From NCBI RefSeq assembly GCF_029227915.1, contig NC_079875.1:6510001-6574000 (forward strand): a stretch of 64,000 bases of DNA, in the 5' to 3' direction. A model generated the notes under the pieces. The model was not told the origin of the DNA and did no database searches. It was given only the letters and a program-made list of their open reading frames with translations. The position numbers and the translations under genes were made by a program. Positions 12,992 to 55,486 of this stretch are shown piece after piece; positions within the stretch are counted from its first letter, which is position 1, and each line of letters opens with the position of its first letter. This DNA comes from Hydractinia symbiolongicarpus. Its lineage: Eukaryota; Cnidaria; Hydrozoa; Anthoathecata; Hydractiniidae.

Positions 12992-15900
12992 TTACCACGA
13001 ATTGTCATCTATTTCAGATATAGTAATATCGTTTGCGTCAAAATTACTACACTGTGGCAAATCACCGCAACTCGTGTCAGGCGTAAAAGGAGTTTTTAAA
13101 CGGTTACACATCTCTGTGGAAATGTTTTCTGATTTATTCCCGTTTTTGGAAGCTGGCTTTTCTGTCTTTCTACTGCTGTCCGTGTCGGTGTCTAAAAATC
13201 GAAATTCTGCTAGTTCCAATGCTTTGTTTTGTTTAGACATGTACAGTTTGTAGGAGTGGTTCGCTCGAAGGCTACTTGCACCTCGATCCAGGCGTAGTTT
13301 CACTCGCTCTGTTTGCATTCTACTAAATAGGGTATCAATTTTATGACGGAAAGTTTGGTAGAAGTTGTGTGTTATTTGATCAAGATGTTGTAACATTTCT
13401 TTCTCACGTTTGAGATGTTCTAAAAAAAAAAGATTTTAAAGTTTAAAAGCTTTGTAGTGTGAAGAACTGCCATGATGCCAGCATAATGCTAAGGGTAATT
13501 TATGCGCGACAATAGACACTTTTTTAACACTGTTTTTTGTAAGGCCAATTGTGAGCAGAACGTTTTTTTTGTACAAATAAATTCTTTATTTGTTTAGTTG
13601 TAGTAAGACACAGATGTAGGTCATATTGTCAGCATAATCGAATGTGACAACACTACCAATAATTGCGAAAGAGTTTCTCTGCCAAGAGTAGAATCAACGG
13701 CAACGAAAACGACAACAATACAACGAGAACAACAACACAAGAAGACAACAACAACCCAACTAGAAGAAACATAAGTACAACAACACAACAAACATGGCAA
13801 CAACAACAGCGGCGACAAAAGCAGCGACAACAGCAGCGACAAAGTAAGATAAAAATCATTTAATTACCGCTTAAATTTTGAGGATAAACCGTGCGTAGTC
13901 TTCTTCTCTTCACTACAAACCACCATCCAGAGTAACCAATTACAATAAAGACAACCAGTGTTATAACTAACGCCAGTAAAAATCTATGTAGAAACTTTGA
14001 ACGGGGGTCAAAAATTGATTTTTCTTTAATTTTCTTTTGCAACTAAAATGAAGAAAAAGCATCAGTAAAGATATTCAAAGTTTTGTTACATCATCAAACT
14101 TTAACGTTTTGTTTATATACCACATAAGTTTTCTTAAAACCGGTCATTCTAAGTCTTAGAAGTTGTCCGGTCTGCGTTGCAAAAAGGACCGGATTCAAAT
14201 TAGGGACCGGATTCAAATTTACTAAAAGATGTTATAATGCCTTACCACAATATTTTCTGTAAAATCATCCACCACAGCTAGTATTTCTGTTTGGTGAGCC
14301 GCAACATAATCAACAGCCAGTCGCTCTACATTCGCTAACGTGCCGCTAAAAACAACTCCATACGTTCTTGGGAATTTGAGAAGGTTAACAGCTCGATATT
14401 CTTCGTTGTTTAGAATGTCTTTATTGCTAGCAGCTGTATATACATCCAGAAGGATGCCTGAAACGTGACCAGAGTTTAACGCAGATAAAAGATCATGGAC
14501 TGTTGAGTATCTTGCACCTAAAATGGAACCAAGAAAGTAAATAAAGAAATAAAAAAATGACGCAAGACGTTTAACTCGATTTTTCAAAGATTCTTCCTTA
14601 AGTTTAGAAGTTGAATAAATGAGAACAAAACGATGTTAAATTCTGTAGTTGTGTTCTTACTGTTAAGAAAAAATAAGAAAAAAATAAGCTGGCTTGAAAA
14701 ATAAGAACAGCTAAACTCAGGTTCATACTTTACTGATGCTTATATAAAGTGCGCATTAATTTCTGCATACAACCATTCTTTACTACATATTTTTCTGTAG
14801 TTTATTTCATAGAATAGTCTTTCAGCTGATAGCGTCAAAAAACAAATACTCGAAGACTCAGAATTTCCAGTCAAGGTATACCAAAAAAATAAGTACATAG
14901 TTTTCATTGCGTCTAGAGTTGACACTCTACGAGAAAATTTAGTCTTTTCTGGACATTATTTAGGACTGTATATACAGCTCTCGTTTTCCAAGATAAAGTG
15001 AAACTTACTTTTATCCACTTTACCATTTCGTAATAATGCAAGTCTTTCTTCAAAACTTCCAGAAAGTGCTGCCACCTATGTATGAAAAAAAATATATTCT
15101 TCCAGTCGAATGTTACGTGGTACTTTCAGTTTTGGGAAACATAACTTTTCCTGGTTAAACTCTCACAGAAGAAGCTTTGATTAAACAAGGACTACAAATG
15201 CATTAAAAAGCACAAATTGGTCCAAAGTAACCAAGGTCCCCCAAAAACTCACACTATATCCGGTTTAAAGTCAAAAAACAATGATTTTATGAAAAACTCA
15301 GACAAGATTTATTAAGAGTTTACTGTGTCATGAACCATAAAGGCTAGGGTGATTGGTTTAAAAATAGCACGTGACATTTGCCGACCGGGAGAATTTAATC
15401 AACATGATTCTTCTGTTTCTTTTGGTTTTTTTTGTTACAACAAAACAAATCGAAACCTCCACGAAATCTTTGAAAAGATTCATATTAAAAATCAGGTTAT
15501 ACCTGCCTTAACATGTTTTAAGCTAAATTACTACAGTGAAGTCTCCGAATGCGCCCCTTCGCCCCTCTCTGTCACTTCCAAACCATTTTTTTCTCGTTAA
15601 TTCGTGATTTTTAAAACCTGATCAAAGTTTTGGACCCTTGCAAGTTCAAAATAGAGAACGTTTTACTTAAGCATTCAACTTAACTTATTTCATAAGGTTA
15701 AGGGTAGAAAATTTGCATTTTATATCTCAATTCTACTAGAATCAGGACAGCCCGGGGAATAGATTTTGTAGCCAATCATAACACTTACTTTTAAACCATA
15801 TACAGATGTTGATTTGGTGGTCTGAACAGCAGTGAAGGTGGAAGTGAGTGCGCCGAGTAGTAATGACGTCATCACAAGGCTTAATGTGATCCAACAGATA

Positions 15901-17199
15901 GCTAGCACACGAGATGAAACCTTTCTGGGTGTGATATCACCGTAACTGAAAGATGAAGTTTCAACAAGGGACTTACTGAGGAGCGCACATCCTATTTGGG
16001 GTGCGCAGCCACGCTAAGGTGACAAAATTGCGCGTTGCTCGCTATTTTTTTCTTGTGAATACATACTCTCTTAAGGGGAGCTTATTTGATGGGTAGGGGC
16101 GGTCTATACCATAAAAACAAATATGTACACTGGCTTTAAATTACACGCTATTTCGTGTGCCTGTTGCACGACACTTTTCTGGCGGACAGATAGATAAAAT
16201 CGGCTGTTATAAAAAATACAACTCACCCAAGTGTCGTCTGAGTAACATACGCCCAGTACAAACCTTGACACATCCCTTTTATTATGTTAGTAGAAAAGTC
16301 GTTGTCGGCTGACCTATAATTTTCCTGAAATATAAAATCTCTTCTAAAGATCGTCCATAAAAAACACAGAAAAGAAACTAATAGTATTAGATGGAACTTA
16401 ACAACAAGGGGTCTGTGACGTCAAACAGATACGCGCACTCGATCACGCAACAACAGGGCATATAAAGGAAGGGTTAAGAGCAACCATTCTCTCAAACATC
16501 GAAAAAGAAAGAAGTTTTTAGATAATGTTCACGTGAGCAAATCACTATTTCGACAGCAGAAAATTCGTGTGCCACTTTATAATTTTTTCCATTGCAAAAG
16601 ATAGGGAGTCATGTTTTTGGCAAAGTTTGTTAATTTAGCCCTAAATTTTAGCAGTGTCATAAAAATGTAAAGGAAAACGGGACAAAGAAAAATGGAAAAA
16701 CGAAGAGAAAGGTATCTTACCAGCGCCCAAATCAATATTCCCGAGATCAGAATTAGTATGATATTCAACAAAAATATCGGCCATACTTTGAAGATATCTG
16801 CCACAATTTTCGTCACATAAGACGCCATACCATCATCTCTCAGAATCAAAACTGCTCCAGGATATTTTAACAATGGCACGTAAACCGAGCTGATGTTTCC
16901 ATTGTCGTCAGGTATTGGATTTGATGAAAGCGGGAAAGAAATTTCAGTGAAATCATCAATATCTTCGACCACGCGATTGATATTCGGCTTGCAAGAAAAT
17001 CCGAATTTTCCGTTGGATACAAAATCCACTGTTGTTCTTTTATTACCCGCGCGTGCGCAGAATCCACATACATTGTGTATTAAGTTGTTGATCACAACAG
17101 GAACGATGCCAGATAACTGTTCAGTTTTGGCTGTTTGAAAAACATATGGTGGCTTGAAAAAATAGTTGGCTTCTACATATTCTCGACATCTGCATGTTT
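12992..17199 (-). CDS. Receptor exons 40-46: iGluR-like ligand-binding domain, K+-type pore and tail
   Basis: Exons: 16721-17199, 16227-16324, 15789-15945, 15009-15075, 14246-14517, 13868-14042, 12992-13419. The topology is that of an ionotropic glutamate receptor: lobe S1 (residues 2386-2520, with EISFPLSSN), TM1 (VWPIFLLNIILILISGIL), re-entrant P loop (GLYWAYVTQTTLGYGD), inner helix (VLAICWITLSLVMTSLLLG), lobe S2 (2631-2760, with SGILLDVY), TM4 (FLLALVITLVVFIVIGY), basic stop KRRR, and a 156-residue cytoplasmic tail. The filter TTLGYGD is the potassium-channel signature (T-x-G-Y-G-D), known in bacterial GluR0 and the rotifer receptor AvGluR1 but not in ordinary animal iGluRs, and inferred here to make the pore K+-selective. 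The ligand is unknown; the Asp in LLDVY sits where iGluRs hold the ligand amino group. Confidence 0.85.
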
Positions 17200-20100: not shown

Positions 20101-22863
20101 GTTAATCTTAGTGGGAGGCTGGGATGGCGCTAGAGAAAAAAAGGTAAAGTTTTGAAGCGTTTAGACTCTTCAGCTTTCATTTTCTGGCTGACAATCAGAA
20201 AATTAACGAAGTTCAATTGAACACTGTGAAATTCGAACTTTTAGGAGTAAAATAAATTTGCTCAAAGCACATCAATCTTTGTAGGAGTCCCATTTTTGGA
20301 CTTAAAGAGTTTTTTTTTTAATCTTTTGTACAGTGGTTTAATGTGTATGCATAAAAAAACATTGCCCTACACAAAAACAATCCATTATCAGTGCTGTATG
20401 TATGACTAACTCCAAGAAGCTTTATATTTTAAATCATTTGTTTTATATATTTATTTATTTTCATCATAAATAAATCCATCTCTGGCATTAAACAAACATA
20501 ACATACTTGTTTCCATGGTTACAGCAGTTAGTAAATCCGATGCGACGCCATTTCCTGCCGAAGTATACGCCAATAACCGCATCACATATTTTGTGAATGG
20601 TTTCAATCCAGTAATCTCTTGGTGCATGTCCCTTGTCGAGAAGACTTGATAGGTTTCTGATAAATAGAGTTTTTCACGATAAAACAATAAATATCCTTTG
20701 ACGTCGCCATTTTGTTGTGATGTGGGAAGTCTTTTCCATGTAACATTTAATGATGTTGGAGTGTTGGACGTGATTGTGATGTTCGGAGGAGCACTACTAG
20801 GGACTAGAATGGAAAAAATGCAACAAATAAAAAATGGAAACAAATTGAGTAAATAATCTGCAAATTGTTCTTTACTTCCACGATGCTTGCTGTGTCTTAT
20901 TTTTGAACTCAAAATTGATAATATTTAAATTATTTATCAGAGTAGTCAGTATGAAAAAAAGACAAATCCACTCTTTTTATTTATCCTAATTTTATCATCT
21001 TTTTAAAGCCGTAGACAATATTGTTTTCCTGGTTGCAAAACTGCGTTGCATAGACTCATAAATGCAAATCTATGTCCTTTACTAAATCTTAAACATAAAA
21101 TTTAACGAAAAAGGATTAAGGAAAAGAAATAGCTTTTCACCCTTTCCAATCCTACACAGCCCTGCCAAATGCTGTTCCAAAGATATGGTCATAAGATACA
21201 CAAAACGCACAGTTAATTCAAGTATTAACATATTCCCTTTGTTATGATAAAAAACTTACGACTATTGACGAATATATTGATAAATTGACGAATAATTTGA
21301 CCTACCAATATTACTGACATAATTCCAACTGCTACCTGAAACAATGGCCATTTTACCAATACCTAGATCACTTTCGATACTATCTTGTAGATAGATCAGT
21401 TGATAGGAGTCAATGCTGGTATAATTGATAGTGAATCCAGCCTCAATGCTACCAGGTCTAACAACATATAAGAGAACAACCAGCTAAATTCCATGTTTCC
21501 CTTTATCACTCCAGGTTATTCTTATAAAACTTTAGAGAAAGTGGAAATCTGAAAATCTGAAAGGAAACATAAAGAAAAACTATCTTTTTTTTATTAGGGT
21601 TGCCACATAAAATTTGTAACAAAATTTCTTCCCTTTTCCTTGACGATTCCATAAAAAGTGTCTGACCTTAAAAAATGTTTTGAGAATACCTCAGGAATGG
21701 GGATATATAAAACACAACCTATGAAACTATCATCTCCAGTTCTTATTTATACCAACCTAGCAGAGAATAGATGTATTCCAATAATCGAGTTTGTAAATCT
21801 GAACTCGTAGGACTCTTTCATCTAAAAAATGAAATAGAAAATGTCATGTTATACGAGATACGTAAACAAAATATGTGCAAAAAATCTTTAATTCTTCATA
21901 TCTTTTTATCTAGATCTTTAGGTAATCTTACATTCACTCCCAAACTAGCTCTCTGTTAAATAAAAAGACTAGGTTAAAGTTAAAAAAAACTCCATGATCT
22001 TTTAAATTATATTTTGCTTTTTGCACACAAGAAACATTAACTTACTTCGTGTAATATGCCAGCCTCCAAACTTTTCCAAGAACTCCCTTCAACAGTACGT
22101 AATCCAGCGTCGAAATGCATATCAAACGTACATGTTGTATTGATATATGCAGCTGAAATAATCAAACTCACAGTTACAGAAAAATAAAATACATACGAGC
22201 AACGTCCTAAAAATTTACAACTGGCGTAGTAGCAGCTAAGGTGGTTTACCAGAAACAACTGTAACCTTTTTTTCATTAAGTAGGGTGCTAGAATTAGATG
22301 CAACAGTTGCTGGTAGGAGCTATATACGATCTAATCTAATTAGAAAAGGGAAGTTTAAAAAGCAAGTAGCATCTTAAAAAGTTAAGAAATCATGGCTTTT
22401 TATACAACGCAGAAGGTAGTCAAGATAGAATTTCTTTGTCTAAATTAAAAAATTGCAATACATTGCATTAACAAATTTTAATAATACACCACACATTTTT
22501 TCTGCACAAAAAATATTTGACTTAAAAAATATTTGATTTCACATAAAAATCTAAAAAATAATGCATAAAACTTAGACAGCATTTCTGAAGTATTTGTAAG
22601 ACTTGAAGCTTTCAATTTTGTGTTTTTCGAACTAAAATTTGTTTTTATTTAATCGAATTAAACTTTCAATACTAATAATATTCAAAGAGAGCTAATTTTT
22701 TATACAGAAATTTTAAAATAATCCACCTAAAAATACAAAGGTTTAGTTACACGAATACAAGATAAACTAGTCGTTAACCCGTGGAAAAACCACGGGTTCT
22801 CCCGTCCTTTTTATACCACATTGCGTGCATCTCGCTATTGCGCATCTATCTACCATTTTGCGT

Positions 22864-22918
<55 letters not shown>

Positions 22919-25900
22919 GTATGCGGGTATTATAATAGAGATAAGTAATATTAGATCAGTATCATTTACAGCACTTACGTGAACACGGTTGGGTATTACA
23001 TAAGGAAGTTTCATTCCAAGCTCCTACACAATACTTGCCACCATACAAAGGACTGGGGTTATTGCAATATCTCCTCCTTATAAGCACTCAACCATTGCAA
23101 GGTTTCGTGCAAGCTGAAAGTTTGGACCACGAAGACCATTGTCCATTAACTGCAAAGAAAAATTTCAACAGTCACTAAATATTTTGAGAATTTCAAAAAA
23201 TAATAGGAAGAACCCTTATACCATACTACATATGCTTTTGAATCTTAATTCGACAATAGTATGTTTTTCATATTATGTTATTGAGCTCAAACACGTACAG
23301 ACCTCCATTCAACTCTTGCATGCTATTTTAACCTTGATTCGACTACCACATTATTGTTTTAACCTCCAACTGACCACTATATACAATTTTTCAACCTTGA
23401 TTCGACTACCACATTTTTTTAACCTCCAACTAACCCCTACGTACGCTTTTTTAACCTTGATTCGACTACCACATTTTTTTAACCTTCAACAGACCAATTT
23501 GTACACTTTTTTAACCTTGATTCAACTACAACCCTTTTTTTAACCTCCAACTGACCAACGCTTTTTTAACCTTGATTCGACTACAACAAATTTTTTTAAC
23601 ATCCAACAGACCAATTTGTACACTTTTTTAACCTTGATTTGACTACAACATTTTTTTTAACCTCCAACTGACCACTACGTACGCTTTTTTAACCTTGATT
23701 CGACTACAACATTTTTTTTAACCTCCAACTGACCACTACGTACGCTTTTTTAACCTTGTTTCGACTACCAAATTATTGTTTCAACCTCCAACTGACCACT
23801 ACATACAATTTTTCAACCTTAATTCGACTACAACATTTTTTTAAACTCCAACTGACCACTTTGTACACTTTTTTAACCTTAGTTCGACTACTACATTATT
23901 GTTTCAACCTCCTACTGACAATTACATACGCCTTTTTAACCTTGATTCGACTACCACAGTATCTTATTAATCTCCAACTGACCACTACATGTGCTCTTTT
24001 AACCTTAATTCGACTACTACGTTATATACAACCTTAGCAACTTTAAAATCTACTAAAACAAGGTTTTCAAAAATTAAATTTTAAGTAAAGAAAATAATTT
24101 CCAGATCTTTAAGAATGTAAAAATATCAGCTCACTAGGACAGCGTTTAGTACCACAAGCTTGAGCTTCTTTTTTTACACCATGACAGTCATATCCGCCAT
24201 TTTGTGGAGAAGGGTTTGCACATTGACGTGTTCGTATACGCTCTCCTTTATTACAAGATTTTGAACAGTTGGACCACACTGACCATTCTGTGAAACCTCC
24301 ATGAACTATAATAATTAAGTAGTGTTAGTTTTAGCTGCACTGGATTGAAATGGTTAATTTATACTGTAGAAAATGATTATTAAAATATGATAAAATGATT
24401 GCTATTAAGGGTTTAGAGCTAAATCGTAAATGCAGAAACAATGGCCACTGTCTGTCTCTGTTTATCTGCAATAAAACTAAAAGTTGTACCATTCATAACA
24501 TGCACTGTTTTTTTTATATACCAGTAACAACATTTTATCACAGTATTTTAAATTAAAGTGAAATTTATGTATCAATTATATGTTCTATTAAACTTTAAAC
24601 GTAAAAGAAAAAAGATACAAACCTGGGCAGGGGATGTGTTCATTGCATTCACTTTGATGTGTTTTATTTCTGGAGCAAGTATCTCCTCCACTCACTGCAC
24701 AGGAGCGATGCCTAACATGGTACCCCTTGCAAGTGGCTGAACAGCTGCTCCATGGGGACCACTCTGTCATGCCAATGTCGTCTAATTGAAAAATTATTCA
24801 AAGATATACTTAACTAGCCGAAATGTATTGTAGGGTATAGTTATTTAAATAGTGTATTATTTCTTCTACTAACTATGGGTTTAACCTTTTTAAAACAAGA
24901 ATGATTTGACAGTTGCTTGTCTTGACAGCCATGCCTGGGGAATTGTATGTCAAATTAATAACATTTTTAAAATAGAAATCCAATACTGAATTTTTATGAT
25001 AAAAAAATCCCTGCACTATTAATACCCAATAGTCATTTACAAAACTGGCTTGCTTTTTACAGCATATATACGTCATCTCATTGAGATGACCTATCCTAAT
25101 ATCAGCTAATTATAAAAATTATGTTTTTTCACATTGTTTTACATTTAACTGATGCATTAACGAAATTCATATCACACAAAACTAAGACTCTAGTAATGTA
25201 TAAATACAAAAAATTACCTTGTAAAATACACTTGCAAAGTCTAATAATCCTATTTGAAGGTGGTTTTGCATCACAATTTATATTTTCTGGAAGACCTTTA
25301 TAACCAGAACACATTTTTGTGTCTTTATGGAAATATGGCGCGTAGTCTTCCTTCCATTCGCTTTGAGATGAATTGTCTGAGCAGGAGAATCCCAAAATTT
25401 TAAATAAGCTGATACTTTCTCCCATATGCATTAGCGGATCACATATTTGCCCTAAATATCATTATAAATCTTGTTCATTTAATTTATATTTACATAAAAT
25501 AGTAACAGACTAGTCAGTTGGTCGTGGTATCACATGGTTGACTGGACAGGTCAGGACATAATGTAAAAACCCAAATGAATGACCGCACAAGATTGGAATT
25601 TCATTTACTCTTTTTTTGTGTAAAATGTTAATTATCTGTGACATCTTCCACAGTACTTACTTTTAATGAAAAGCTTTATAAGCTTCAAAACAATAGTGCT
25701 TTTTGATAAGATTTTAACATAATCAGATGTTTAATGGCTATTTTGTGTTTAAGAGATTTTGAAAAAAGAAAACAGAAAATGTTTCTGTAGCAGATAATAA
25801 TTTCGCCCTAAACGAGCAGAAAAATGGGCGTCATGTATGCATACTTGCTACTTAGTTCATTTATTTAGTGTTCCATCAAGGTTTATTTATCAAAAATAAA

Positions 25901-28900
25901 CTACAATCGTGGACGAAATGTAATAAATGATCTTAAAAAAATATTGACATTTTGTCAAAAATTGCTAATATCACCAGAAAGGGGAATTTTGGCAGGTGTT
26001 TTATTCATTTTTTCCACCATTGTAGCTTTCACATTGTCGAATATATTTTGGGCATCGCATGACCCAGGTCCGTGCTACAAAGAAACAAAATATGGCTGTT
26101 ATAAGAGACAAGTTGCCAAGGAAATGTATGACAGGTAAACTGTCATACATTTCCTTGGCATGGATTTTTACCATTACGAGTACCAATTCGACTAAGGGTT
26201 TGAACCAAATATGACTATTATCATAGAGTAACAAAAAATGTTTAATTGATCTTCTTTTTTTTATATCAAATGTACTATGTAAAATAACCTGGAAAAATAT
26301 TTTCTACATATAGGAGGAATTCCAGAATTTTATGAGCATGTCTACTAGTACACTGGTGTTTACTCTGCTTTATTTCATGTAACTTGAGAGAGACAGTTCG
26401 AATACATATAAAAAATTAATAAATACTATATTTACTCTAGTAATTGACTTTATACCTATATCTCCTGCCATGGCATAGTATTGTGAGCGTGCTTTCTGGA
26501 ACAATTTTAAGGAATTCAGTCACGCTCACAAAACATCAGACACATCACACATAGTACATCAAGCAAAAGTTCCAGTATTTGCATTTTTTAAATTGACAGA
26601 GAAGGTTTGTGCTAAATTTAGTTGAGTGTTTATGGTTCTTATGAATCACAACTCCTTTGACCTTTTTAAAAACACAAAATGCCCAAAATACATTTGTCGA
26701 AAATAATGATAATAATAATAATCTGATTTTCATGCATTGAAAAAACTTTGATATTCCCCTATAGCAAACTGGCCTTTCCTTTCTTAGGTTAAAATACTAT
26801 TCATCCCATGGTCGGAATAACAGAGTTAATAAGGTTATCACAGTTTTCTTGTTTTATTATGAACAATTGAGGGAAATTTTTTTGTCACTTTTCTTACAAA
26901 ATTTATGTGATAACTTGCTAAATTAAACAAACCTTAAATTATTCAAAATAAAAAATCCACCTGTTTCAGCACAAAATTCTGTACAGCTACTTCTACGCAT
27001 AGTGTAGGCATACTTCGAGCAATCTCCAATCCCTTGACAGCTTTCATACATGGTGGAACTTCCAAAACATTGGCTACTTTCCACTGCATTTATACATTTT
27101 CTTTTGCGAGTCCGGTTACCCGTTTCACATACAACATTACAAGGTAACCATTCTGACCATGCAGCCCAGTGAGCTGAAAAGAGTAAAATCTTACTACCAT
27201 AGAGGTGTTAATTAGTACAATAAGGCTTGTATAAAACACACAAACATCTTTTATGGTAAAGTGGCTCCATGCAAGTGCGATTTTAAATTTAAAGAGAGGT
27301 TATTTTAAAAATTATGTAACAATGTTAGGTTTATTTCCAATTAATAAGTCTGCCATGATTAAATTTTATTCTATTATTGTGTTAGCGAATTTATAAAAAT
27401 AAGAAAATAAACAAAAAAACAAACAAACAAAAATACCTGAATCTTGTGTTGTTGAATGTGTAGGAGTAGATGTGGCGAGTGTAGAAGTTTTTGTGTTAAG
27501 AGTGGTAAACTTTGAACTTGTTGCGAAAAGTTCAGTGCTGTAAATTGTTGCTTGAATTGATTCTGTCGATGTGAGCGGAGATGTCGATACATACAGTGTA
27601 GATGGTATTGTAAAGAATGACGACGCTATGCTGGTGAAAATAATACTTGAGGTTATATTGCGATCTAAAAGTAAGCAGGACCCTATAGGATAGACTGGCT
27701 ATGAATAATAAAACTATCTGTATTCCCGTGAAAGAATCCCCTGTATTTCTCTTTTATTCCATGCAACAGGCATGTTGTATGGATTAGGGTTAAAAAACAA
27801 AAATCAAAAAACAAACAACACAGACTGCTGTGTTGTTTGTTTTTTGATTTTTTGTGAATTTGACAATCCGCCTTATATAATAATTACAGCCTAAGCATGC
27901 GCATTGAAAGAATAACAACTCAATACTGTGCAATAAAAGTTAAAGTGTCCAACAACTGCAGTATATTTCTGACATTTAAAAAGAACATTCATATTTTTTT
28001 AGAAACACAAAATCCAAAACGCACTGAAATTTAAAATTTTTACCTATACTGTTTTTTGTTGTTGTTTATATTTTCTACTTACCACAATGTGCATTTTCAA
28101 AATCAAAACATGACACCACACCCAAAGTCATCTAAACCTTTTTTTTTACTAGCCACAAGGTTAAGTACATAATTTCAATAAGTAAATAAGTACATAATTG
28201 CAACACAATACGACAATACAGACTATAATTTGACTCGAATGGCGTCAAAAATTCAAAGAAATTATTAACCTTTAATCTGCGCTGGATATATACATTCCAA
28301 AGTGAAATATAGCTCGTCATTTGAAAATTGCAAGCAGTAACCATAATATTCAAATATAGCTGGTCGAAAAAACCCATCCACAAAATGAAATACAATGCAA
28401 TCAATGGCATCGTCGTTCATGATTCCTAACACAAGAACATATAGAATCATATTATACTCATATACATATTATGCCAACCATAAAGTTTCTTGGTAAAGGT
28501 ATTGCTAATATTTATATTCATAGGCAACTTGACTTTTAAGTTAGTATTTGAGTTGCTAAAAAATTAAATTGAAGTTGTTTAATAGTGGCTTAGAAAAAAA
28601 TCGAACAGTTTACAAATTATCAAAAACATTGCTAGGAATTCACTTAATTGTTGTTTTTTAACAACTAAATACTAAGAACTAGACACTAAATAAAGGAAAA
28701 GCAAAATAAGTGTTCACTTTACCCTTAATTTTGTATTTTTTTTAATATCTTTAGTTCAAAACACTCTACCAAAGCTGCTTATCAATTTTACAGAATTTAC
28801 AGAATTACTTATAAGAATTTTTTTTAACTTTTATTTAGCTGTAATTTTAGGGAAAATATTATGCCGAAGTGTTGCCATTGCAACCAATTTTGAAAGTTTT

Positions 28901-29977
28901 AAAGAATTTTAGTTTTTTTTTTATGAAAAATTTTGAAAATTGTTCTTTAAGATTTAGGAGATTTCTTATTATATAGCTAATCATTTTATGTTTGTCACAT
29001 TAATGTGACTAAATATAAAGCAAATGTGATACTTAAGTAAAATTAAAAAAAATCTTCTTATAATAACAAAGAGCACAAAATGTGCTTATACTTACCTATT
29101 TTCACTGGGCTTTTTATGTCAAACTGAGTGAGATATAAGCAATAAATGACGTCATTGCTGGAATCATTTACAGTAAGGTAACCCTTGAAGTTTAACAGTA
29201 ATTTGTAACCCACGTTTTTTATGATCTCTCCTGGTGCTAGCATGTCTGTACTCCATACATAGTCAACTCCAGCTATTTGGTAAAATATTTCTTTTGCTGT
29301 GAAATTTTCACCTAAAAACAATGATAGCAAAGTTATCTAAAAGTTATCTACAAATGCAAATATTATTTTTTCATCAAGGTTTTGCAAACACAGGGTGTGA
29401 ACAATTTCTGTTTCAGAATAAAATCGTGAATTTAATAGTTGAAAAAAATAGGGAAACTTAAGAAGGTTGATTCTAACTTTTACAACAATAACAAAGTATT
29501 TTCAATGTTCTTCTAACGAGTTTATGAGGAACTAGTCTTTAGCCCATGGAAAAATCCACTGGTTCGCCCGTCGCAGCTAATGTACCATTTTCCGTGACAG
29601 ACAGACAGACAGACGGACGGACAGACGTATTTTCAATGTTCTTCTAACGAGTTTATGAAAAATGAGCGCAAGAAGGTATAATAAAGTATATATAAGATAT
29701 AATACATACAATATATACATTAATTTTCTGTAAAAATAATTGGTGTTATACAAACATTAATTTTGGATAGCATGAAATAAAAGTCAAAAATGGTGTATGC
29801 ATGGTGTATGAATTCATCTGACTTCATCTAACAACGAGTATTAGCATGGTAAATGCGTGTGAAACAGTTGTGCAATTAACAATTCAACATCTATTTAAAA
29901 TACTTTACAACATGTATTTTACCCAACTAATTGTATAACAAATCATTTGCACCTATAGTATAGAATTTTAAAAAATT

Positions 29978-30009
<32 letters not shown>

Positions 30010-36000: not shown

Positions 36001-39000
36001 CAACATTTACATAAAGGTAATGCTGATTTTTTGGACTGATCTTCCACTCAAATGCAGCAGTGTCTAAATTATAATATGATGATATATTTTCTCTTCTATT
36101 AAAAGCTGTATTTTGTTTATAGCTCAGGGTGCTGTTTAATAAATGTCACATTTCGAAAGATATAAAGAGCTTCACCTAACTGTGATTTCGGAAATTGAAC
36201 TTATATATTTATTATAGACTTATTATGATTCACCTAACAATCGGAGAGTGTTTGGCTGTTAAATATACATACTGCTTTCTTCTTAGCATAAAATATTACC
36301 TGACGAGTTCGGTAGACTTGCAAGAGAATCAGATACTGTTCGATTTGAACCTATTTAAAAATGAATAAAACTACGCACAAAACATACTGATTTATTTCTC
36401 CTAAGATTTATGTGTTTGTCTATCTAAAGTTTTGTCATTGACTGAAAAGTTTATGTACTGCATCGTTTTAATAGATACTTCTCTCATAATATTATACTCT
36501 GTCAAGATACGCTTTAAGTTTGGTTCGTAGTACGGTCTTGTATTTGCTCAAACCAGTAACCAGTGTGATTAACATAGAAATTAAAGTTATTGTAAGTTAG
36601 CAACCTAAAGAAAAAAAATTATCATTTTGTTTTGCACTTCTAAGTAATTTTAAGCTTCATATATATATAATAAGTGCAATTGCAAAAAGTTTAGTTGATC
36701 ATACTAGAGTATTGCAAATGAGACTTGCATTCATGTCATTGCATAATCTTTTAGCTTCACTCCATGTTAATCCAACATTTACATAAAGGTAATGCTGATT
36801 TTTTGGACTGATCTTCCACTCAAATGCAGCAGTGTCTAAATTATAATATGATGATATATTTTCTCTTCTATTAAAAGCTGTATTTTGTTTATAGCTCAGG
36901 GTGCTGTTTAATAAATGTCACATTTCGAAAGATATAAAGAGCTTCACCTAACTGTGATTTCGGAAATTGAACTTATATATTTATTATAGACTTATTATGA
37001 TTCACCTAACAATCGGAGAGTGTTTGGCTGTTAAATATACATACTGCTTTCTTCTTAGCATAAAATATTACCTGACGAGTTCGGTAGACTTGCAAGAGAA
37101 TCAGATACTGTTCGATTTGAACCTATTTAAAAATGAATAAAACTACGCACAAAACATACTGATTTATTTCTCCTAAGATTTATGTGTTTGTCTATCTAAA
37201 GTTTTGTCATTGACTGAAAAGTTTATGTACTGCATCGTTTTAATAGATACTTCTCTCATAATATTATACTCTGTCAAGATACGCTTTAAGTTTGGTTCCA
37301 AATAAGGTTTACAATCGTTGTGCAAAGTGGAAAATCACTGAAAGATATGTTGTGCAACCTTTGATGATTATTTTTTATATAAAAATTGTAAGTAGCCGGA
37401 TGTAGTGACATGCACCTGTAATCTAGCTAAACTTGTGGATGGTATCATATGTTTGTATTAAAGCTGCACCCATAGCTCGTATTTCTTTAAAAAAAATAAA
37501 GATTAAAGGGAGTTTTTAGCAAAAAAAAACTAAAATAATTTAATTACTCACAAAAATCTTTACTGCTATTTGATGGATAAAAGAGATTTATAAAAAGTTA
37601 TTGAAGGAAGATTAACAATTTGTAGAAGTTATCTAAAATTTTCCTGTTTTTTTAAATTCAGAAATTTTGGTTGGATGTGTTTTAGATGCAGCTAAATCAA
37701 TCCTAATTGAAACTGAAACAGGATTTTTCATTGTTTTAAAAAAAACCACTAACATTTTTGACCTGGCTCTACTAAAAGGATGAAATCCTAATTTTTTTCC
37801 TAATTAACTTGACTAAAATGTCTCCTTGGTTAGAAACTCCTGATTTTATTAAATATTAAAATGATCATATTTCACATATATACATGACATATTCCACAGT
37901 TTAAAATCTTAATCCGTGTCTTGGAAAAACTTCAGTGGAAAAAAAAAACTTAGTGAAAAGTTTTGAAAGTATTATGCCTGTTTTTTTAAGCTTGAGAAAT
38001 TCTACTTAAGTGTTTATATTTTTTATTCTGAACATTTCAGTAAAAATCTGCTGTATCCTGTTAGCCAAAATAATGTCGAAAATCCAGTAAAACTGTTGTT
38101 GTAATGTCGTCTGAGAAACCCAAAAATAATTTTTTTTTATGTACTTAGTACCCTTGTCAACTTACAAAAGTCTAGAGAAAAATTGAGATCACTGAATTAA
38201 AAAGAATGTTGCGCATTCTTTATAAAACAAATACATACCATAACCACCAGCTGCACATATAAAAGGAGCTTTTTGACTACATACTTCTGTACGCCATCTA
38301 CTAACACTTCTTACATATAATACACAACGTGGAGTATATGAAGATTTAAAATACCAATTCTCGTAAGTCATGTTTTTTCCTGAAAAAGTTAAGATTATAT
38401 TTAAAACTTCAACTGTGTCATTGTAATTTAAACAAACCTTAGTGTGGTGTAACAAATTGTCAGCAATATTAGAAAATTTACACCACATTCTGTACTTGAT
38501 ATTGCATTTCTTACTTGTCTCAATAAATACTGCAATCTGATAAGGAAACATATGTTCGATTTTTCAAGATTTTAAAGTAAATCATCATGGAAAAACAACA
38601 CGAAACAACAATATTCTACTTGTTGTGCCTAAGGTCAGACAGGAGTTTGCGAAGACAGCTTTTTAGACATGTGAGCAAAGCTTTATAACTTGTTACCTAG
38701 AGAAATTTGATTGGCCCAAAATAGAATTCAACAAGAAACTTGAATATTTTGAAATCTAAAGATCTTTTTAATTATTAATATTTTATAATGTGTATATTTA
38801 ATATTTTAACTATATCTATATATTTTAGGTTTTCATTTTTATTTAAAAGACATGATTGATAGCAGTTTTTAACTGATTTGTACATCCTTTTAAAATAGAA
38901 CTTTGTCAATTATGAAGAACTTATTAAGAACATACTTAGCCTGAATTCCTTCATAGGTTTTAAGAACTAAGTAGTTAAAGTCTAGAAAACAATTACTTTA

Positions 39001-42000
39001 AAACAGTCTTTCCTGTTTTTAAGAATATCTTTTTTAATAAGGACCTATTTTAATTCTTAACACTGTCTATTTAAAATATAGTCTCAACTTTTGTAAAAAA
39101 CAAAAATAAGAAAATTTGACGCTAAAAAAAGCAAAAAAATAAGCACATTCAATCTTTAGCTAAATTTCAGACATTCTTATAAAAATATGTACTGTATCTA
39201 TTCATGAAACATTTTAATACACCTTATCTATTAAAACTATAATCTGTATTTAATAACATTGTATTTTCCACAATAATCACAACCCTTTAATAAGCACTGC
39301 AATCTAACATACCCTGAATCTGTTTTTAAAACATCTACTTGCTAAAAAAAACCAGCAAAAAATGTATTAAAAATGTTTTTTATGTAGAGTTTTTTATTAA
39401 AAAACAGAAAGGTAAGTTTGTGACAAAGTGGAAATGCAGTTGCATTCACGAATAGTGGATCTTTTTCATAATGTAAGATAAAGAGTCAAATTTCTATATT
39501 TTTTTTCAAAATGGTAGGTGAATCTGTAGTTTGTTCAAAGTATGTACAAAATGTACAACAGGCGAAATTCGGAAGACAGGAATTTATGTACAATGGTCAT
39601 ACCCACTAACCACTCTTAAATACAAAATGTTCCTAATTGTATAGAAACACTATAAAATAATTTAAGATATCAAGAAAAATTATCAGTTCATGTTTTAGAA
39701 TAGAGATTTAAGAGGGATTTTCAATGCATGGGAGATTTACAGAGGCTTTGAGTATTTTTTTATTTTTCAGTTAATTGTGTCAATTAGGGTTAAAAAATTG
39801 CTTTTGTTAGTTGCCTATACCCTTCTTTCTGAAAATAGCACTCTCTGCTAAAATGCCCTAGAAACTAATTTTTAAAAAATATGGTATCTTCTCAAGTGTT
39901 TACCAATTTAAGTGGACCTTTTCTCTGGAACTTATAAAGATAATCTCAATAAGGTGACAAAATTATCATTTAAATTGAACCTACCATTAAGCCAAGTATA
40001 TTCCTCTGCACTACTTTGTCTAAATCCTCCAGTCCAGAAAAAATTACTATCATAGCCTGCAGTAAGACGGTGAATAAAAAGATTTTCATCTGCATTTAAG
40101 ATAGATATTAGGTGACTGTCATGTCTTTCGCAAGTTGCTTTTGCTTGATCCCATGTTGATGGAGTTGTATATAACTTGTAATCTAAAGAGTTCAAAGTAT
40201 TATTGGGGAATGCTTCAGATTTCTTAATACATTAATATGTTTAACACAGTTTTCATGTACCTAATTTTTTAGCTCGAGTGTTTTAAGATTATTAGCAAAT
40301 ATTAATTATTGTTATGTTATAGCTAATAAAGTGAAATACATCAATAAATGACGATTGTCCTTTGAACATGAAAAATAATCATAAGGCTTGGAGTGAGATG
40401 TTGAGTATTACAAGTTTTTTTATTCCAATACTGTTGTATGCTTAAAGACTCTATAACACCTGGGAATGTTAGCTTGTTAAGTTTTGGGGGAAACTTGTTA
40501 GAAGGTTATACACCTCAAAATTGAAAATTATAAAAAAAACATACGGGGAATTGTTTTTTGACAAACAAATGATTTTTTCGTAGTACGGTCTTGTATTTGC
40601 TCAAACCAGTAACCAGTGTGATTAACATAGAAATTAAAGTTATTGTAAGTTAGCAACCTAAAGAAAAAAAATTATCATTTTGTTTTGCACTTCTAAGTAA
40701 TTTTAAGCTTCATATATATATAATAAGTGCAATTGCAAAAAGTTTAGTTGATCATACTAGAGTATTGCAAATGAGACTTGTTAAAAAGCTTTAATTATTG
40801 TTTTTGTTGTCATTACAAAACACATTTACAGGGGGAGCTGGATGTGATAAAATAGCATTACAGTAAAACGTCTAACTCAACACGCTCTCTAATTAATGTG
40901 CAGGGACCGTTTTTGGAAAAAAATGTAATTTATTTTCATTTAATTTTACTTGCGTGCCCTATCCTTAATAATTAATGTGCAGCCTGTAAAAAATGTTGTT
41001 ATTTTCCCCTAATTAATAACGCACATTCATGCTGTATAATTTTTATAATTGATTTTCTTCCAATTTTCTATGTGTGTCTGTCCAAATAATTATTTTTACC
41101 TGCGTGTTAAATTACAAGTTTATTGTATATACATACTGAACATAACAGAAGTGACCATAAACTGACAAAAGTGAAATTCACTATATAACTCCCTTGATGG
41201 ATTTTTGTTAAATTTTTTAAGGGGCAATTTACCTGTACTAAAAAATTAAAATTGAGATTAAATAAAATGATTAAACTTTAAAAAAATTGAAAATAAAAGT
41301 TAATTACTTTTAACAAGTTAGATTGACATGATTTAATATTTTGGGAGAAAATAATTACAAATACCACTATTTTAATAAGAATAAGTATCTTTAAAAAGTG
41401 ACAATAAGTACCATCCATTCTTTTTATTGATTCACAAAAACTAATCTTTGCCAAAAATCATTTTCGTACTCGTTTGGAAAAATAAGTCTTGCAAAATCCT
41501 TGAAATTTCCTTGTTGTTGTAATAATGAAGTTAAATAATTTTAGTAAAACTAACAACTGATACCTTTTTGGAACAGCAAAATTAGAGTAGCTGATATTTG
41601 TTCCATCCACCCAAGTTGTTAAATAACCACCGTCTGTAAAGTTTTTCGACAACCCAATCCAATACTCTTTAGATGAGTTAAGCATCGTGTTTATAAATTC
41701 ATCCTCGCATGCATTTTTTATAACAACCAAACTACCTCCTATCATTTCACAAATCATTTGAGAATCACTCCAGGTCAAGAGTTCTTTCATTTCTTTATAA
41801 CAGTGATTGTTAAATTGCTTCCAGCCTTGTGCCTCATTACAAGAATTAAAATCATGGTAAAAAGTGCCTGAAAAAAACCAACTGCTTTGAAACCAGAATA
41901 TAACAACAAAAAAGTGCAGACAGAGGGTGAGATACCTTGTTGCTACAAGAAATTACAAGTTTAACTTTGTCAATGTTTACAGCAAGCTTTGGTTCAGTAC

Positions 42001-45000
42001 CTTTAACCTACTGTTAGTATCGTTATTTAGTGACATCTATCTGTAAGGATTATTATACATAAGTACTCTTTTCTCTCAGTTTTAGGGCTTCACAGGCCTT
42101 GCTGTTAATACTTTGGCTAATAATAATTTGTTCTAAGAGTATTGACAATGAGAAATAATAATAGAGTTTAACAAGACAATACATACTTCCACTCTTCTTA
42201 CATATGAAAGGCAAATTTAAATCACAGTTTTTTGATATAAAACTGTCTCCAGGAGTTTCGTATGCTCCACAGGAACCAAATGAACCCACAGGCAAATATT
42301 CAGTGATCAATAGTGATGAATCTGTCCAAGACCACGTTGCACTAATATTTAGTTCTAGTCCAACCCAGTATACAAAATTGTTAGCCTTGATCACTTGATT
42401 TATTTTGTTGAACTCTAGAAAATGCTCAACACTTGCGAGCTCTGCATCTAGCATCTGACACATAGATCTAGCATCTTGCCACTTGTGTGGTTCATATATC
42501 GTTGTATACCAGCTTGTGGTGGAAACATACCATGTTGATATACTTGGGTATAAAACTGAAAATAATATTTTAATTGATGGAATTTTTTTAGGATTATCTA
42601 AAATTACAGAAATGTATAATAACATAGTTTTAGATACCTTCTGGTTCACATGATTGAAATTTTAAAGAATTCTGACATGCTTTCAAAACTTGAACTTTTT
42701 CGGATGTTGAATTATATTCCAAGCAAAATGGCAACTGATGAGGCTTAACATCACCCTTGGAACTGATGAAAAAATAGTTTTTCACTTCTTCTTCACTGTT
42801 TTCTAGTGCGTTTGTTTTTTCTAACAACAAAAAAAACATGATAGCTGGTCCTTGTATTTTTATAAAAAAAGTTAATCTAAAAAAAAGTTACCTGTGAAAC
42901 ACCCTTAAGAAATTAGTAAAAAACACCATCATTTCCACTTATATACTAAAAATATTATATAATATTACAAATATTACCACTTTCTTGGTAGTGTTAAGAA
43001 GCCCCTTACTTATTTGCATCAACGAATTGCAATGGAAAGATTTTATATGCAAGAAATGTTCATAATGTCCAAATTTTAAAATCTTTAATAACAATTACCT
43101 GGCTAAATCTCTTTTAGCTTACTTCATTAGGAAGACATATAATATTAAAATTTAATTCACTTAGCAGTTATATTTACTCTGGCACCATGCATTGATGACA
43201 GTAAATAACAATGACATTAATAAGAACTAAAGTATTTACATTGCTTTAAAACAGAAACAGAGACTCCAATTTAGATTATTCAGGCCAACTTATGAAATCG
43301 CTAGAAATTATTATTTCAGTGGATGTAATTATGTAATATTTTAATAATAATAAAATACAAAGTGACAAATTTTTTTGCTTAAATCATTTTAAAATTGGAG
43401 GCACTTACGAAAGTGCAAATTACCTTCAATAAATGGCTTATCAATAAAATAATATAGGTTTACCTATATTCTCTATAGTCCATGGCATATTTTGAAAATT
43501 GATACCCAAAAAAGCTTCCGTTCTTAAAGACTTAAACGTCATGTAATTATCATATGTAAGTATATTTGTTGTGTATGCGCAACATTGCTCTGGCAGATGT
43601 TCTTGTTTGGTATTGACAACACCATTTAAATCAAATGATAGACAGTTTACACCATCACTTGTAGGAAGATTAGAATAAATAGCAGAGATACCAAGATTTT
43701 CTAAAAATATTATTGAATTTCTGTAAATGCAACGCATTATGTGAACATGCATAAAATTAAAACAAGATAATAAAAAATAATATCATTGATAATATCTGAA
43801 ACAGAATTAAATGTCATGTAAATGTGATAATTGTTCTGTCATTACAATTTTTCTTTATTCTTTAGTCCCGCTTGAGCAAAATTTGTTGAAAAGAACAGTG
43901 TATTCTTCAATTTATTTTGTTGAGTTTGTTAAATTTTTTTAGTATCAAGTGCATTTTCTAAAACTACTTCTAGGTTTAGTCGCCATATATTTTTCAAAAT
44001 GGCTTCCAATTCTATGGATGTTCGCAAAAATGATGTCCAAACTATATACATGGGTGAATTTTAACGTATTTTCCATGCCATAAGGAGTTGTTTGTATAAT
44101 ATGCTCTTTTCTTGTGGCTACTTTTGACAAGCAAAGTTGTTGTGTTATATTTCCTTGGGAAACAGCTTCAGTAACATGTGGTATTTGCTAAACTATTTTT
44201 TTAATTCTGCCTTTTGTATGCGGATGTCTTTGTTTAATTTCAAAATATATTACACAAAATATGCAAACATTCAACTTTACGCACATCAAACCAAAAAGAT
44301 AGTGTTGTCTATTTCATTGCAGTGTTTTGACTGGAATCAACAAATCCATTTATAAGTTATTTATAAACTTATTTCTTGAATGTTTTTTTCACCTTTTACT
44401 AGTAAATAACATAATCTAGAATTCAAAATTCTTTCTTATACATAATTTTTTGGTAAAATACAAAATACACAGTGCTAACCCTATAAACACCTTCAAAGTT
44501 ATGGGGCTATCTATAAGAAACAAAATAGTGATACTTACTGGAGGTTTGTGCAACATAGGTAGAAAAAGAATGTGAAAAACAGTCCTCTAAAAAGACAAAA
44601 AAAACATTACATAAAAAACTTTCAAACAACAATTTTCAAAAAATAGAATTTCCTACATAATCTTTAGACTTATTTTTCTTTGGTGATCAATAACATTTTA
44701 TTCATTAATTACTTAGACTGTGATGTTTGTACAAAGATTTCATAAGGTTTAGTAAAACGATTTAAATATTTTAAGACCATTTTATTTACGACAAAATAAT
44801 TTCACCATGATACTTCATAATGGCAGAAAATGGCAGTATTGTCGGGTAGCTGTGTTTTGTTTTTTATACACAGTTGCTGTTCTGTGCTTTTTTTTAACTT
44901 TAGATCTGCTATGTCTAATATGTAATTCCCAACTGTGTCTTATCTTATGCTTTAGCTAAGACATATTTTATAGAAACCAATTTTTACAGGAATTAAAAGC

Positions 45001-51000: not shown

Positions 51001-54000
51001 ATTATACTCAATGCACAAATTGCTTTAAAAATTATTATCAAATAAAAGAAGTATGTAAACAGTAAGACAAAAAAATATTTTGAGAAAAATTAATTTTTCT
51101 GAAAATAGATAAATGGGGGTTTAAGAACTATTCAGAAGAATTTAGGCTTAATAACAGAGACAACCCACATAGAAAAGTGAAAATAGTTTACTTGCTTATT
51201 TTCCTTAAAAAGTATACCAAATAGTGCAAATAACGCAATAAAGGATGGAAGAAGTTGGATTAATTGAGATTTAAACCAGATTTTGGAACATATTAATGAA
51301 ATATTTTTATCGAACCACAGAAAAATAATTATTACCTTCAGAGTTTTCCAATCTTTTAACAAAGGTTTGGCCATCAGGATGGTACTCTATACAACTAGCA
51401 GCTGTTTCATTCTCAAAAAGGGCATATTTATTATATTCCAAATAACGTAAGTAAGATGGATACAAGATACAGCAATCCAGACCATTTGTAATGGAATGTA
51501 ATTTTAGCACACCATTCTCAACATATAAGCAGAAAGCAGCATTAGCGTTGTTTTTAACAAATAGTCCATAAGGAGCTAAAAGAGAAGGTGGAAGAATTAT
51601 GAATATTTATTTCATATTAAATATGAATTCCAAGTCAGTTCACTAAATATATAATTAAGTGGCAATAGTCGGTGTACAAAAATGTAGTCACATAGAATTT
51701 AAAGTCATGTTTTGTTACCATTATAAAAATAAAATAAAATTTTGAACGTTTTTAGTTATTGGAATCCTGAGGCATAACTATACCTAACAAGCCAAGGTGT
51801 TTCAAACAAGCCAAAACGTTTAATGTGATGTGTTAGTTAAAAAAGGCCTTACAAATTCTACTTTAATCGGAAAATATTTTCTGTTTATATTTCACATGCA
51901 GCTTAAAAATGATCAAAAACGTTTTTTATACCATAAAAAAACAGAGATAAAAACTCTCAGCCTTCGGCTAGAGGGTTGTAATTTGTCATCCAATATGGCA
52001 CCATTTTTGTTTTGTGAGAATTTCTTAGTTTTGCCACCATTAATTTGAAAACATCTGTGTCATCACAATGGCAAACCACTGTTTTTTACCCACAAAGGAT
52101 TACATTACAGTTTCTCGTCCACTGCTTGCATATACTTGAGGTTAATTATTTAAAAAACTAGTCGATAAGGCTCGTGGAGAAATCCACTTAGGCAGGAGGA
52201 CAATGTAAAAATTGGTTTGCCTGTTACAAAAAGACACAGTCCCTGTATTATTATAAGAGATATGAGCTCATCATCAGTGGGAATGAGGCTTTAGAGTAAG
52301 GTGAGCTTTACAAATATATGGTGTCAGATCCCTATACAAATAGGTTTTTCAGTCAGTTGTTGAATAAGAGTTTAAAACGTTGAAAAAATTGTGTCCAACT
52401 ATCCCGCCATAATGCAGACCATTAAAAACCATAATAATAATTATTAATAAATTGCATGCCTTGTTTAATTGAAGCTTTTGTGCAAACTTGCTTTTTTTTA
52501 ACTTGCCTGTAGGACCCTTGGCATTCACAGTCAGGATTTTAAAACGAAGCACCTTCATGGTGAAATAATTGTGGGTAATGGCTGTGTGGGAAGACAATAA
52601 GGATACAATATTATTTTGTCGCTCTAGCTCTTCTGACTCTGTATGTGGAAAATTGCAATAAAAAAATAAGGTCAGTCACCATATATTTGTGATGTTTTCT
52701 ACGAAAAGCTGAAAGCAAGGATTTTTACTCCAAATACATCACCGAATTTAAATGACAAAATTTTTCATGTTTTTCCCAGCAGAAACACGTGATTGTTCCT
52801 TTTGTACAGTTTATTCTTGCTTTACAAAGACGCAGTAACAGAGTACTGTTCTGCCCGGATAATGAACATTGGCCTGATTAAGTACGGCAGCTTGCACCGG
52901 TTAAGAACAGGCCAGAAAATACATAATCAGGGCAACATAATCAGGACAGGCCGGCTTATTACTCAAAAAATATTATTTGGCACTTATAAAAGGGACATAC
53001 AATCAGGGCAGGCCAGTTTATATACGACAGTGTAATATTATTTCTCATTTATTATAGAACGAACATAATCGGGGAAGGCCGGCTTATGTATGACAGTCAA
53101 ATATTATTCCAGACTTATAGAACAAATATAATCGGGGCCGACCGCTTTTATATCATTCGTCATCACTTCTGACAAGCGAATAGCCCTGGTGGCAAAGTTG
53201 TTGTTGCTCTCAAATGAAACGAAATTTCGCGGCAAATACTAAATTTTGGGATTCGCAAGTTTAATAACTTTTCACCAAACTTAATTCCCTCAAAAAGAAT
53301 AATTTAGGTTCCGTGAAATTTTGTTACTTCAAAGTATATTATGCTGAAATGTATTTACTACAAGATTAGTTTTAAACTAAGAATTACGTCGAGACTTTTT
53401 CTTCCGCCATCTCTAGTTTTTAGGGGTGTTCTATCTTCCAGAGAATGTTTAATTCACAAAAGTTCGAAGAAAATGCCAATCACAGCCTGCCTGGCCAGCC
53501 ATTATATCAGCGTTCATAATCCGGTCACCACTACATAACCAGTGCAAAAAAACATAATCGGATCATGTGTACATAATCCGGCTGTCCCGGTTGTAAACAG
53601 GCCGTTTTCGCAATCTGGGCAGAACAGTACCGCCAACAGTGTGCTTCGCCGCGCCATGATACTTTCAGTTTCGATTTTAAGTTTTATGGAGTGGAACATG
53701 GAATACGCAGCAGCCCCTCGGCCCTCAGGCATAAATCATCACAAAAACCGCGTTATGCGCTGCGAAAAATTTGATTTGCCAGATGCACTTACTGCGATGA
53801 AAAAATCCACGCGACGAGCCGCTAGGGTCAAAAAATTGAGAGATGCTATGGTGCATCGCCCTAAGTCTCCTGTAAATATTGGCAGGTGAATTTTGAGAAG
53901 TTTTGAGTGCGCGTGGCTTGGCTATCAAAATAGGATATATAATTACATTATTTTTATGAAACGAGCTTCAAAATGTGGTCTTTGTTGCAGTATTTTACGC

Positions 54001-55486: not shown

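Follow-up and report, generated by a model that had tools for sequence, protein, structure and literature searches.

A multi-lectin adhesion arm joined to an iGluR-like channel with a K+-type filter in Hydractinia symbiolongicarpus, and an in-frame stop in one copy

The gene and the support for its exons

The window analysed here, a 64,000-nucleotide stretch of the Hydractinia symbiolongicarpus genome (NC_079875.1, positions 6,510,001 to 6,574,000), contains on its minus strand a gene in which cysteine-rich modules, seven C-type lectin-like domains (CTLDs), a Ser/Thr-rich stalk, four TSP1 repeats, a SEA-like domain and three FN3 domains precede a putative ligand-gated channel with a K+-type filter. 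This order had been proposed, with no strand given, in a sequence-only reading of the same DNA, and it is confirmed here as far as the stop codon, 12992-12994. Three further RefSeq proteins of the species, of 2014-2389 amino acids, have the same fusion: P0001 (LOC130633709), P0002 (LOC130633755) and P0003 (LOC130642791). The single RefSeq protein found for the locus itself, through a profile of the channel part, is isoform X2 of LOC130634855 (P0011, 946 amino acids), corresponding to the 3' part of the gene. Our model comprises 40 exons, from 51575 to 12992, where 46 had been claimed, and the unbroken frame of 2943 residues envisaged earlier is interrupted by an in-frame TGA at 23090-23088. 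The features follow in the 5' to 3' order of the gene, each with its strand and support.

53540..53657 (-): candidate first exon with a signal-peptide-like start, MARRSTLLAVLF; unverified
51336..51575 (-): first Cys-module exon; gene finder, by eye like the N-terminal modules of P0003
42638..46227 (-): further N-terminal Cys-module exons (46227-46033, 45484-45353, 43700-43464, 42820-42638); gene finder
42187..42555 (-): CTLD1; Lectin_C 8.1e-15, tblastn with P0001 and P0003
40545..41867 (-): CTLD2 (41867-41564 and 40657-40545); Pfam, gene model, first exon also tblastn
38239..40182 (-): CTLD3 (40182-39985 and 38379-38239); Pfam, gene model, first exon also tblastn
35680..36063 (-): CTLD4; Pfam, gene model, tblastn
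35042..35419 (-): CTLD5; Pfam, gene model, partly matched by P0003
33728..34905 (-): CTLD6 (34905-34707 and 33885-33728); Pfam, gene model
31995..33543 (-): CTLD7 (33543-33328 and 32186-31995), the sole CTLD with KPD and WVD; Pfam, gene model, first exon also tblastn
28270..31332 (-): two two-exon modules with no Pfam name (31332-31084 and 30855-30682; 29311-29096 and 28425-28270); gene finder
27437..27664 (-): Ser/Thr-rich stalk, 49% Ser plus Thr; gene model
26961..27173 (-): TSP1-1 and start of a Cys module; Pfam, tblastn 41% to P0001
25218..25451 (-): Cys module separating TSP1-1 from TSP1-2, with no Pfam name; 50% to P0001 over 80 residues
24623..24781 (-): TSP1-2; Pfam, tblastn
24135..24305 (-): TSP1-3; Pfam, tblastn
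22979..23149 (-): TSP1-4 exon of 171 nucleotides with the in-frame TGA 23090-23088; 59% to P0001, acceptor score 4.5, donor score 1.2
21306..22152 (-): SEA-like domain (22152-22046, mini-exon 21952-21932, 21821-21757, 21457-21306); P0011 except for the mini-exon
20507..20803 (-): FN3-1; Pfam fn3, P0011
19842..20129 (-): FN3-2; Pfam fn3, P0011
17744..18031 (-): FN3-3; Pfam fn3, P0011
16721..17199 (-): putative S1 half of the binding domain and M1; tblastn, hydropathy, predicted structure, P0011
16227..16324 (-): linker from M1 to the pore and beginning of the pore loop, with the filter codon divided at the exon end; gene finder, P0011
15789..15945 (-): rest of the filter (YGD), M3 and start of S2; gene finder, tblastn, P0011
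15009..15075 (-): S2, SGSFEER exon; gene finder, tblastn, P0011
14246..14517 (-): S2, main part; gene finder, tblastn, P0011
13868..14042 (-): M4; hydropathy 2.69, tblastn, P0011
12992..13419 (-): cytosolic tail and stop codon; P0011, tail motif ER.KL..DRG.SSLR common to P0001-P0003

The gene finder was a small splice-and-codon model trained on the window itself, and its exons were then curated by hand. None of the 39 exon junctions shows a phase conflict and 30 are in phase 1, an agreement that the gene finder requires and that is thus no independent proof of the model. Independent support comes from P0011 for 13 of the 40 exons and from tblastn matches of P0001 or P0003, of which a script kept the collinear ones only, for 21, giving 24 in combination. 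The remaining 16 have the gene finder as their support, joined by Pfam in the case of the CTLD halves: five exons of N-terminal modules, five that each encode half a CTLD, four of the pre-stalk modules, the stalk and the mini-exon. From its Met in exon 22152-22046 to its end P0011 is identical to the spliced model at 946/946 residues once the seven-codon exon 21952-21932 is left out; this mini-exon, not present in isoform X2, is perhaps an alternative exon separating isoforms. Exon 45484-45353 was predicted in only one of two gene-finder runs, and Pfam returned nothing at E 0.05 for the open reading frame (ORF) that surrounds 42820-42638.

The 5' end is less well defined. The start with a signal peptide that had been placed at 55486 was not recovered, since no signal-peptide exon was listed there at the thresholds used. 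A weak alternative is the exon 53657-53540, the sole phase-1 candidate (donor score -0.4) that relaxed thresholds yielded between 51.6 and 60 kb, which the gene finder likewise picked, from an upstream Met. A plus-strand reading of the gene was rejected, no family match above 35 bits being present on that strand of the window, and ten ORFs outside the gene have no Pfam match above the cut-off. Several products of the gene finder were discarded: exon 26074-25975, for a phase mismatch and because P0001 passes straight from TSP1-1 to the Cys module, and a number of micro-exons together with two repeat-derived exons at 19.3-18.8 kb. The gene finder's single-gene answer (67 or 54 exons in its two runs, a second gene being permitted) was given no weight because it overran the real stop to 11447 and avoided the TGA through a poor donor at 23093 (-2.0).

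The adhesion arm and its relatives

In the search for paralogues the full model set the required length and the channel was scored, so that long proteins alone could return. Eight proteins with E<=0.001 were obtained among 4960 candidates. Three of these are P0001, P0002 and P0003, at 46-49% identity across 94-97% of the searched region; in the remaining five the match spans 12-21%, and these proteins contain cyclic nucleotide (cNMP)-binding and K+-channel-type domains. Pfam assigns six, three and four Lectin_C stretches to P0001, P0002 and P0003, respectively, and to each of them four TSP_1 and three fn3 stretches along with Ion_trans_2. Since these three further RefSeq proteins have the fusion, it is the property of a gene family in which the lectin part is loosely kept. 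The proposed union of a lectin and adhesion ectodomain with a K+-filter channel is thus supported, and the accompanying worry that two adjacent genes had been run together is answered at the level of the family, while the frame of the window allele remains divided by the stop. RefSeq names all four proteins, P0011 included, 'uncharacterized'. PF23376 is listed by the database for P0001, P0002 and P0011 and is absent from our own Pfam scans.

In the window gene, Pfam recognises seven Lectin_C stretches in the four pieces scanned (E 8.1e-15 to 1.5e-28), three TSP_1 stretches (5.6e-24; the query, ending at the stop, held just 19 residues of the fourth repeat) and three fn3 stretches (3.4e-34 together). 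At E<=1 it returned nothing for the SEA-like domain, for the Cys module after TSP1-1 or for the last three of the four pre-stalk module exons, which were the ones scanned. The label 'SEA-like' reflects only an RPGSI-type motif and the position of the domain. Modules are arranged differently among the relatives: by eye, the stalk lies before the module in P0001 and after it in the window gene, and a similar module adjoins TSP1-1 in P0001. A chitin-binding CBM_14 domain is found at residues 19-65 of P0003, right after a signal-like start, and the N-terminal modules therefore differ among members. As measured by tblastn the lectin part is the least conserved, with 24-34% identity in the nine CTLD matches kept, compared with 27-75% in the rest of the gene, where 21 of 26 matches exceed 40%.

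Ca2+-dependent sugar-binding C-type lectins carry the motifs EPN or QPD and WND. A pattern search found neither in CTLD1-6, and in CTLD7 a degenerate pair, KPD and WVD. Because the first six domains matched neither pattern, classical Ca2+-mediated sugar binding seems doubtful for most of the CTLDs, and protein or matrix partners would be as likely. The glycan recognition attributed to the arm in the sequence-only reading is accordingly no more than a possibility.

The TGA at 23090-23088, in the exon 23149-22979, is the sole stop codon inside the 40 exons, and the corresponding position is occupied by Gly in all three relatives (P0001, P0002 and P0003). The exon has phase 1 on both sides, so that a transcript without it would stay in frame and encode a receptor carrying three TSP1 repeats. 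P0011 begins in the exon directly after it and, by eye, has no signal peptide. We read this start as the annotation's response to the stop, not as the sign of a separate gene. A minisatellite (23322-24017, 63-bp period, 11.4 copies) occupies the intron just before the exon.

The channel part

Hydropathy, predicted secondary structure and structural alignments agree on the order S1-M1-re-entrant pore-M3-S2-M4 of an ionotropic glutamate receptor (iGluR), and the only three hydropathy peaks above 1.6 in the whole model lie within this part. Pfam scores Ion_trans_2 at 3.2e-11 in the window model. Lig_chan is also matched, at 2.6e-5 in the window piece, yet below its curated cut-off of 30.8 bits: the values are 24.5 for the window piece, 26.6 for P0011, 18.2 for P0001, and 17.7 and 23.5 for the two TCONS proteins P0009 and P0010. 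Neither P0002 nor P0003 has a Lig_chan match among those listed at E 0.1. Because of these sub-threshold scores we call the channel 'iGluR-like' and do not file it as an iGluR member. No Pfam match to a LIVBP-like amino-terminal domain (ATD) precedes S1 in P0001-P0003 (E 0.1) or P0011 (E 1), and FN3 directly adjoins S1.

The fold was assessed through AlphaFold models of two members. For P0009 (679 amino acids; no templates, five-row alignment; mean pLDDT 57.8, pTM 0.40) Foldseek gave iGluR chains in all 50 matches listed, with E from 2.2e-11, and re-alignment by VIA, which re-aligns solely what Foldseek found, gave iGluR or plant GLR chains in 50/50 over residues 79-479. With the P0011 model (pLDDT 66.3, pTM 0.40) plain Foldseek returned FN3-type chains only among the best 50 listed; of the 50 listed by VIA, 47 were iGluR or GLR, the iGluR alignments covering residues 394-794, and three were FN3 pairs. 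The binding domain split around a pore, as earlier proposed, thus finds support as an iGluR fold in the predicted structures, which point to an iGluR-type clamshell. By sequence the pore matches K+ channels, and these are also the matches of profiles in which the pore is included. A viral structure library was uninformative, its named matches being mostly phage tail and FN3 proteins with one ABC-type amino acid transporter.

The filter TTLGYGD straddles the junction of exons 16324-16227 and 15945-15789, and a T-x-G-Y-G filter, in the form T[LIV]GYGD, is present in the pore loop of five of the six members. In iGluRs M3 contains the motif SYTANLAAF; this was not found, an LLGALTxxF-type sequence standing in its place. 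A hand alignment of the six members, with no iGluR sequence included, shows no Arg five residues after the S of PLS in any of them (Lys in P0001 and P0002), a position which we take to be that of the iGluR Arg holding the α-carboxylate of the ligand. In S2 the same alignment has SGSFEE in five of six and an Asp in all six at what is presumably the site of the iGluR ligand Glu. Four Cys residues are invariant in S1. A tree of the six channels has no starred inner branch out of three, the best fork being P0001 with P0002 at 92/95, and we therefore make no claim as to whether the duplication predates the split from the TCONS species.

Interpretation and chromosomal setting

On balance we think it probable that the locus belongs to a Hydractinia family of giant tetrameric iGluR-type K+ receptor channels with an adhesive arm. 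The order of the domains and its presence in three paralogues are direct observations; that about 400 residues on the membrane side adopt the fold of an ionotropic glutamate receptor (S1-M1-pore-M3-S2-M4) is a prediction only. Subunits would assemble as a tetramer around a K+-type pore, with an arm of approximately 2270 residues (lectin, TSP1, SEA and FN3) in place of the N-terminal domain of animal iGluRs, gripping cells, mucus or matrix. The arm might either tether the channel at contacts or relay binding or pull to the clamshell, which would then drive opening of a K+ conductance and hyperpolarise the cell. Because the carboxylate-holding residue seems to be missing, the clamshell probably does not have as its ligand a glutamate bound in the manner usual for iGluRs. 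We infer K+ selectivity, ligand, gating by the arm and biological role alike. Were this correct, an adhesion receptor and a ligand-gated K+ channel would be one molecule, recognition acting on membrane voltage with no second messengers, and K+-filter iGluR-like channels would persist in cnidarians. The clamshell-pore unit, to our knowledge seen only with an ATD or nothing in front, could then bear a wholly different ectodomain.

Individual traits of such a receptor have parallels. Plant GLRs (AtGLR3.4) have an LIVBP-type amino-terminal domain and are not known to carry a lectin arm, nor is the bacterial GluR0 known to carry an adhesion arm. In the polycystin-1 family a C-type lectin domain belongs to a membrane protein that is linked to a channel; that channel, however, is TRP-like and accompanied by PKD repeats and GAIN/GPS, while P0001-P0003 have no Pfam match to PKD, GAIN/GPS or polycystin channel domains at E 0.1. 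GluD delta receptors, with cerebellin and neurexin, show the outer part of an iGluR acting in a contact, although in that case a separate partner of the ATD forms the bridge, whereas in the Hydractinia family the arm belongs to the same chain. AvGluR1 of the rotifer Adineta vaga is described as combining iGluR architecture with a K+-channel filter signature (PMC12332018, PMC12226733) and as activated by amino acids (PMC12226733), unlike the Hydractinia proteins, which seem to have no carboxylate Arg and place a lectin/TSP1/SEA/FN3 arm before S1. GluR0 of Synechocystis is described as a glutamate-activated, K+-selective channel with a TXVGYG pore loop and two membrane segments (PMC12332018), and so differs in having no M4.

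Several observations weigh against the reading of the locus as such a receptor. The window allele is interrupted by the TGA, and the sole RefSeq protein found for the locus has neither lectin nor TSP1 parts. P0001-P0003 are predictions from one genome, and P0002 starts inside a CTLD. Three Hydractinia paralogues have the domain order, but P0009 and P0010 begin in the FN3 region, so that evidence for the fusion is confined to Hydractinia. Both structural models are middling, with listed iGluR root mean square deviations of 6-14 Å, and the whole-chain Foldseek TM-scores of P0009 are low (0.21-0.46). Against the PDB a sequence profile of S1S2 gave nothing significant among 12 sequences up to E 10 (best Far1, E 0.13; best of the right fold AncQR, E 0.21; three weak binding-protein rows). 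Lastly P0010, a Clytia-type member, has SQGFGD instead of the filter, which suggests that some of the family have lost K+ selectivity or altered it.

The strongest rival is that the window copy is a pseudogene or null allele while its paralogues work; its products would then be no more than a secreted piece with lectin and TSP1 domains and a channel piece that could not be exported. The stop falls in a well-conserved exon at a position that is otherwise Gly, the 946-residue RefSeq protein has by eye no signal peptide, and an exact 576-bp duplication near CTLD4 comes with an inserted copy of another exon region. Against this, the 40 exons are otherwise free of stops, the splice sites of the interrupted exon appear usable, its symmetry means that skipping restores the frame, and the name 'isoform X2' suggests, by itself, RNA evidence. 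We judge the case evenly balanced, and rank a nonsense or pseudogene copy first among explanations of the TGA, with a full protein made by skipping the symmetric TSP1-4 exon second and less likely. A base error is possible but is not our first guess because the published assembly was made from PacBio HiFi reads (PMC10411563).

A locus divided in two, whether into neighbouring genes or by a second promoter, with a secreted multi-lectin protein encoded upstream and a channel with TSP1 and FN3 domains downstream, appears improbable. It would account for the start of P0011 at the SEA-like exon and of P0009 and P0010 in the FN3 region, and a scan of 32.0-22.2 kb listed ten possible signal-peptide exons, four of them (ATGs 28450 and 28420, two donors each) in frame with the module exon 28425-28270. 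The ATG at 28450 opens a hydrophobic start (MILYVLVLG, hydropathy 3.0), possibly an alternative, lectin-free start just before the stalk, so that a lectin-free product of the locus is possible. It falls, however, in the acceptor region of the model, where pyrimidine-rich DNA gives hydrophobic codons by chance, with a donor score of at most 1.4; such starts are common (40 rows over 51.3-13.0 kb), the three paralogues are annotated as single fused proteins, and P0011, with no signal peptide, could not place S1 outside. Somewhat less remote, though still on the unlikely side, is a clamshell that has lost ligand binding, with mechanical gating through the long tethered arm. SEA and FN3 domains are frequent in force-bearing proteins, the missing Arg would fit, and the four invariant Cys could lock S1 to FN3-3; yet S2 retains SGSFEE and the invariant Asp, as judged by hand alignment and iGluR landmarks, and S1 and S2 are almost as conserved as the pore part (47%, 55% and 55%, window against P0001).

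Returning to the adhesive K+ receptor, we can extend it speculatively, and with rather little confidence, to a hydrozoan family of contact-gated K+ channels, in which touch by a cell, prey or surface would be turned into hyperpolarisation via fast-changing lectin arms; allelic loss, exon skipping or alternative starts would vary these arms, suiting self/non-self or prey recognition. Hydractinia is kept as a laboratory animal and its allorecognition genes are known, making knockouts and grafting assays feasible. Literature searches, in coverage that lacks most subscription journals, turned up no paper linking lectins, TSP1 and glutamate receptors in Hydractinia or cnidarians and none naming any of the four LOC numbers. 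The words lectin, glutamate and thrombospondin do not occur in the main texts of the Hydractinia cell atlas and genome papers. In a further study a neuron cluster is reported to be enriched for iGluR-signalling terms, and a gene with TSP_1 repeats to mark cnidocytes (PMC12464821); neither finding is tied to these genes.

The numbers LOC130634855, LOC130633709 and LOC130633755 are near that of an Alr1 gene, LOC130635943. The allorecognition complex is on chromosome 3 (PMC11876637), and P0001-P0003 and P0011 are listed on the 42,572,105-bp contig, the largest scaffold (PMC10411563), so that a chromosomal link to that complex is tentative at best.

Repeats are found both within and around the gene. 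A 576-bp stretch with part of the CTLD4 exon (35951-36526) is repeated at 36723-37298 with 100% identity, and between the copies, at 36524-36727, lies a 204-bp exact copy of the CTLD2 second-exon region (40577-40780); either a complex duplication took place very recently or the assembly is chimaeric here. The possibility that the duplicated pieces near 36.5-36.9 kb form a chimaeric CTLD was rejected because of mismatched splice phases. The intron that separates FN3-2 from FN3-3 holds a 157-bp repeat (18846-19002 and 19118-19274, 98% identical) that is open in frame and was the source of false exons. Upstream of the gene there is a tandem array of 21 copies of a 41-bp unit (56553-57413). A short repeat, perhaps a short interspersed element (SINE), is present in three copies (7166-7281, 12000-12117 and 22766-22890) that are 75-86% alike, two of them adjoining GACA runs.
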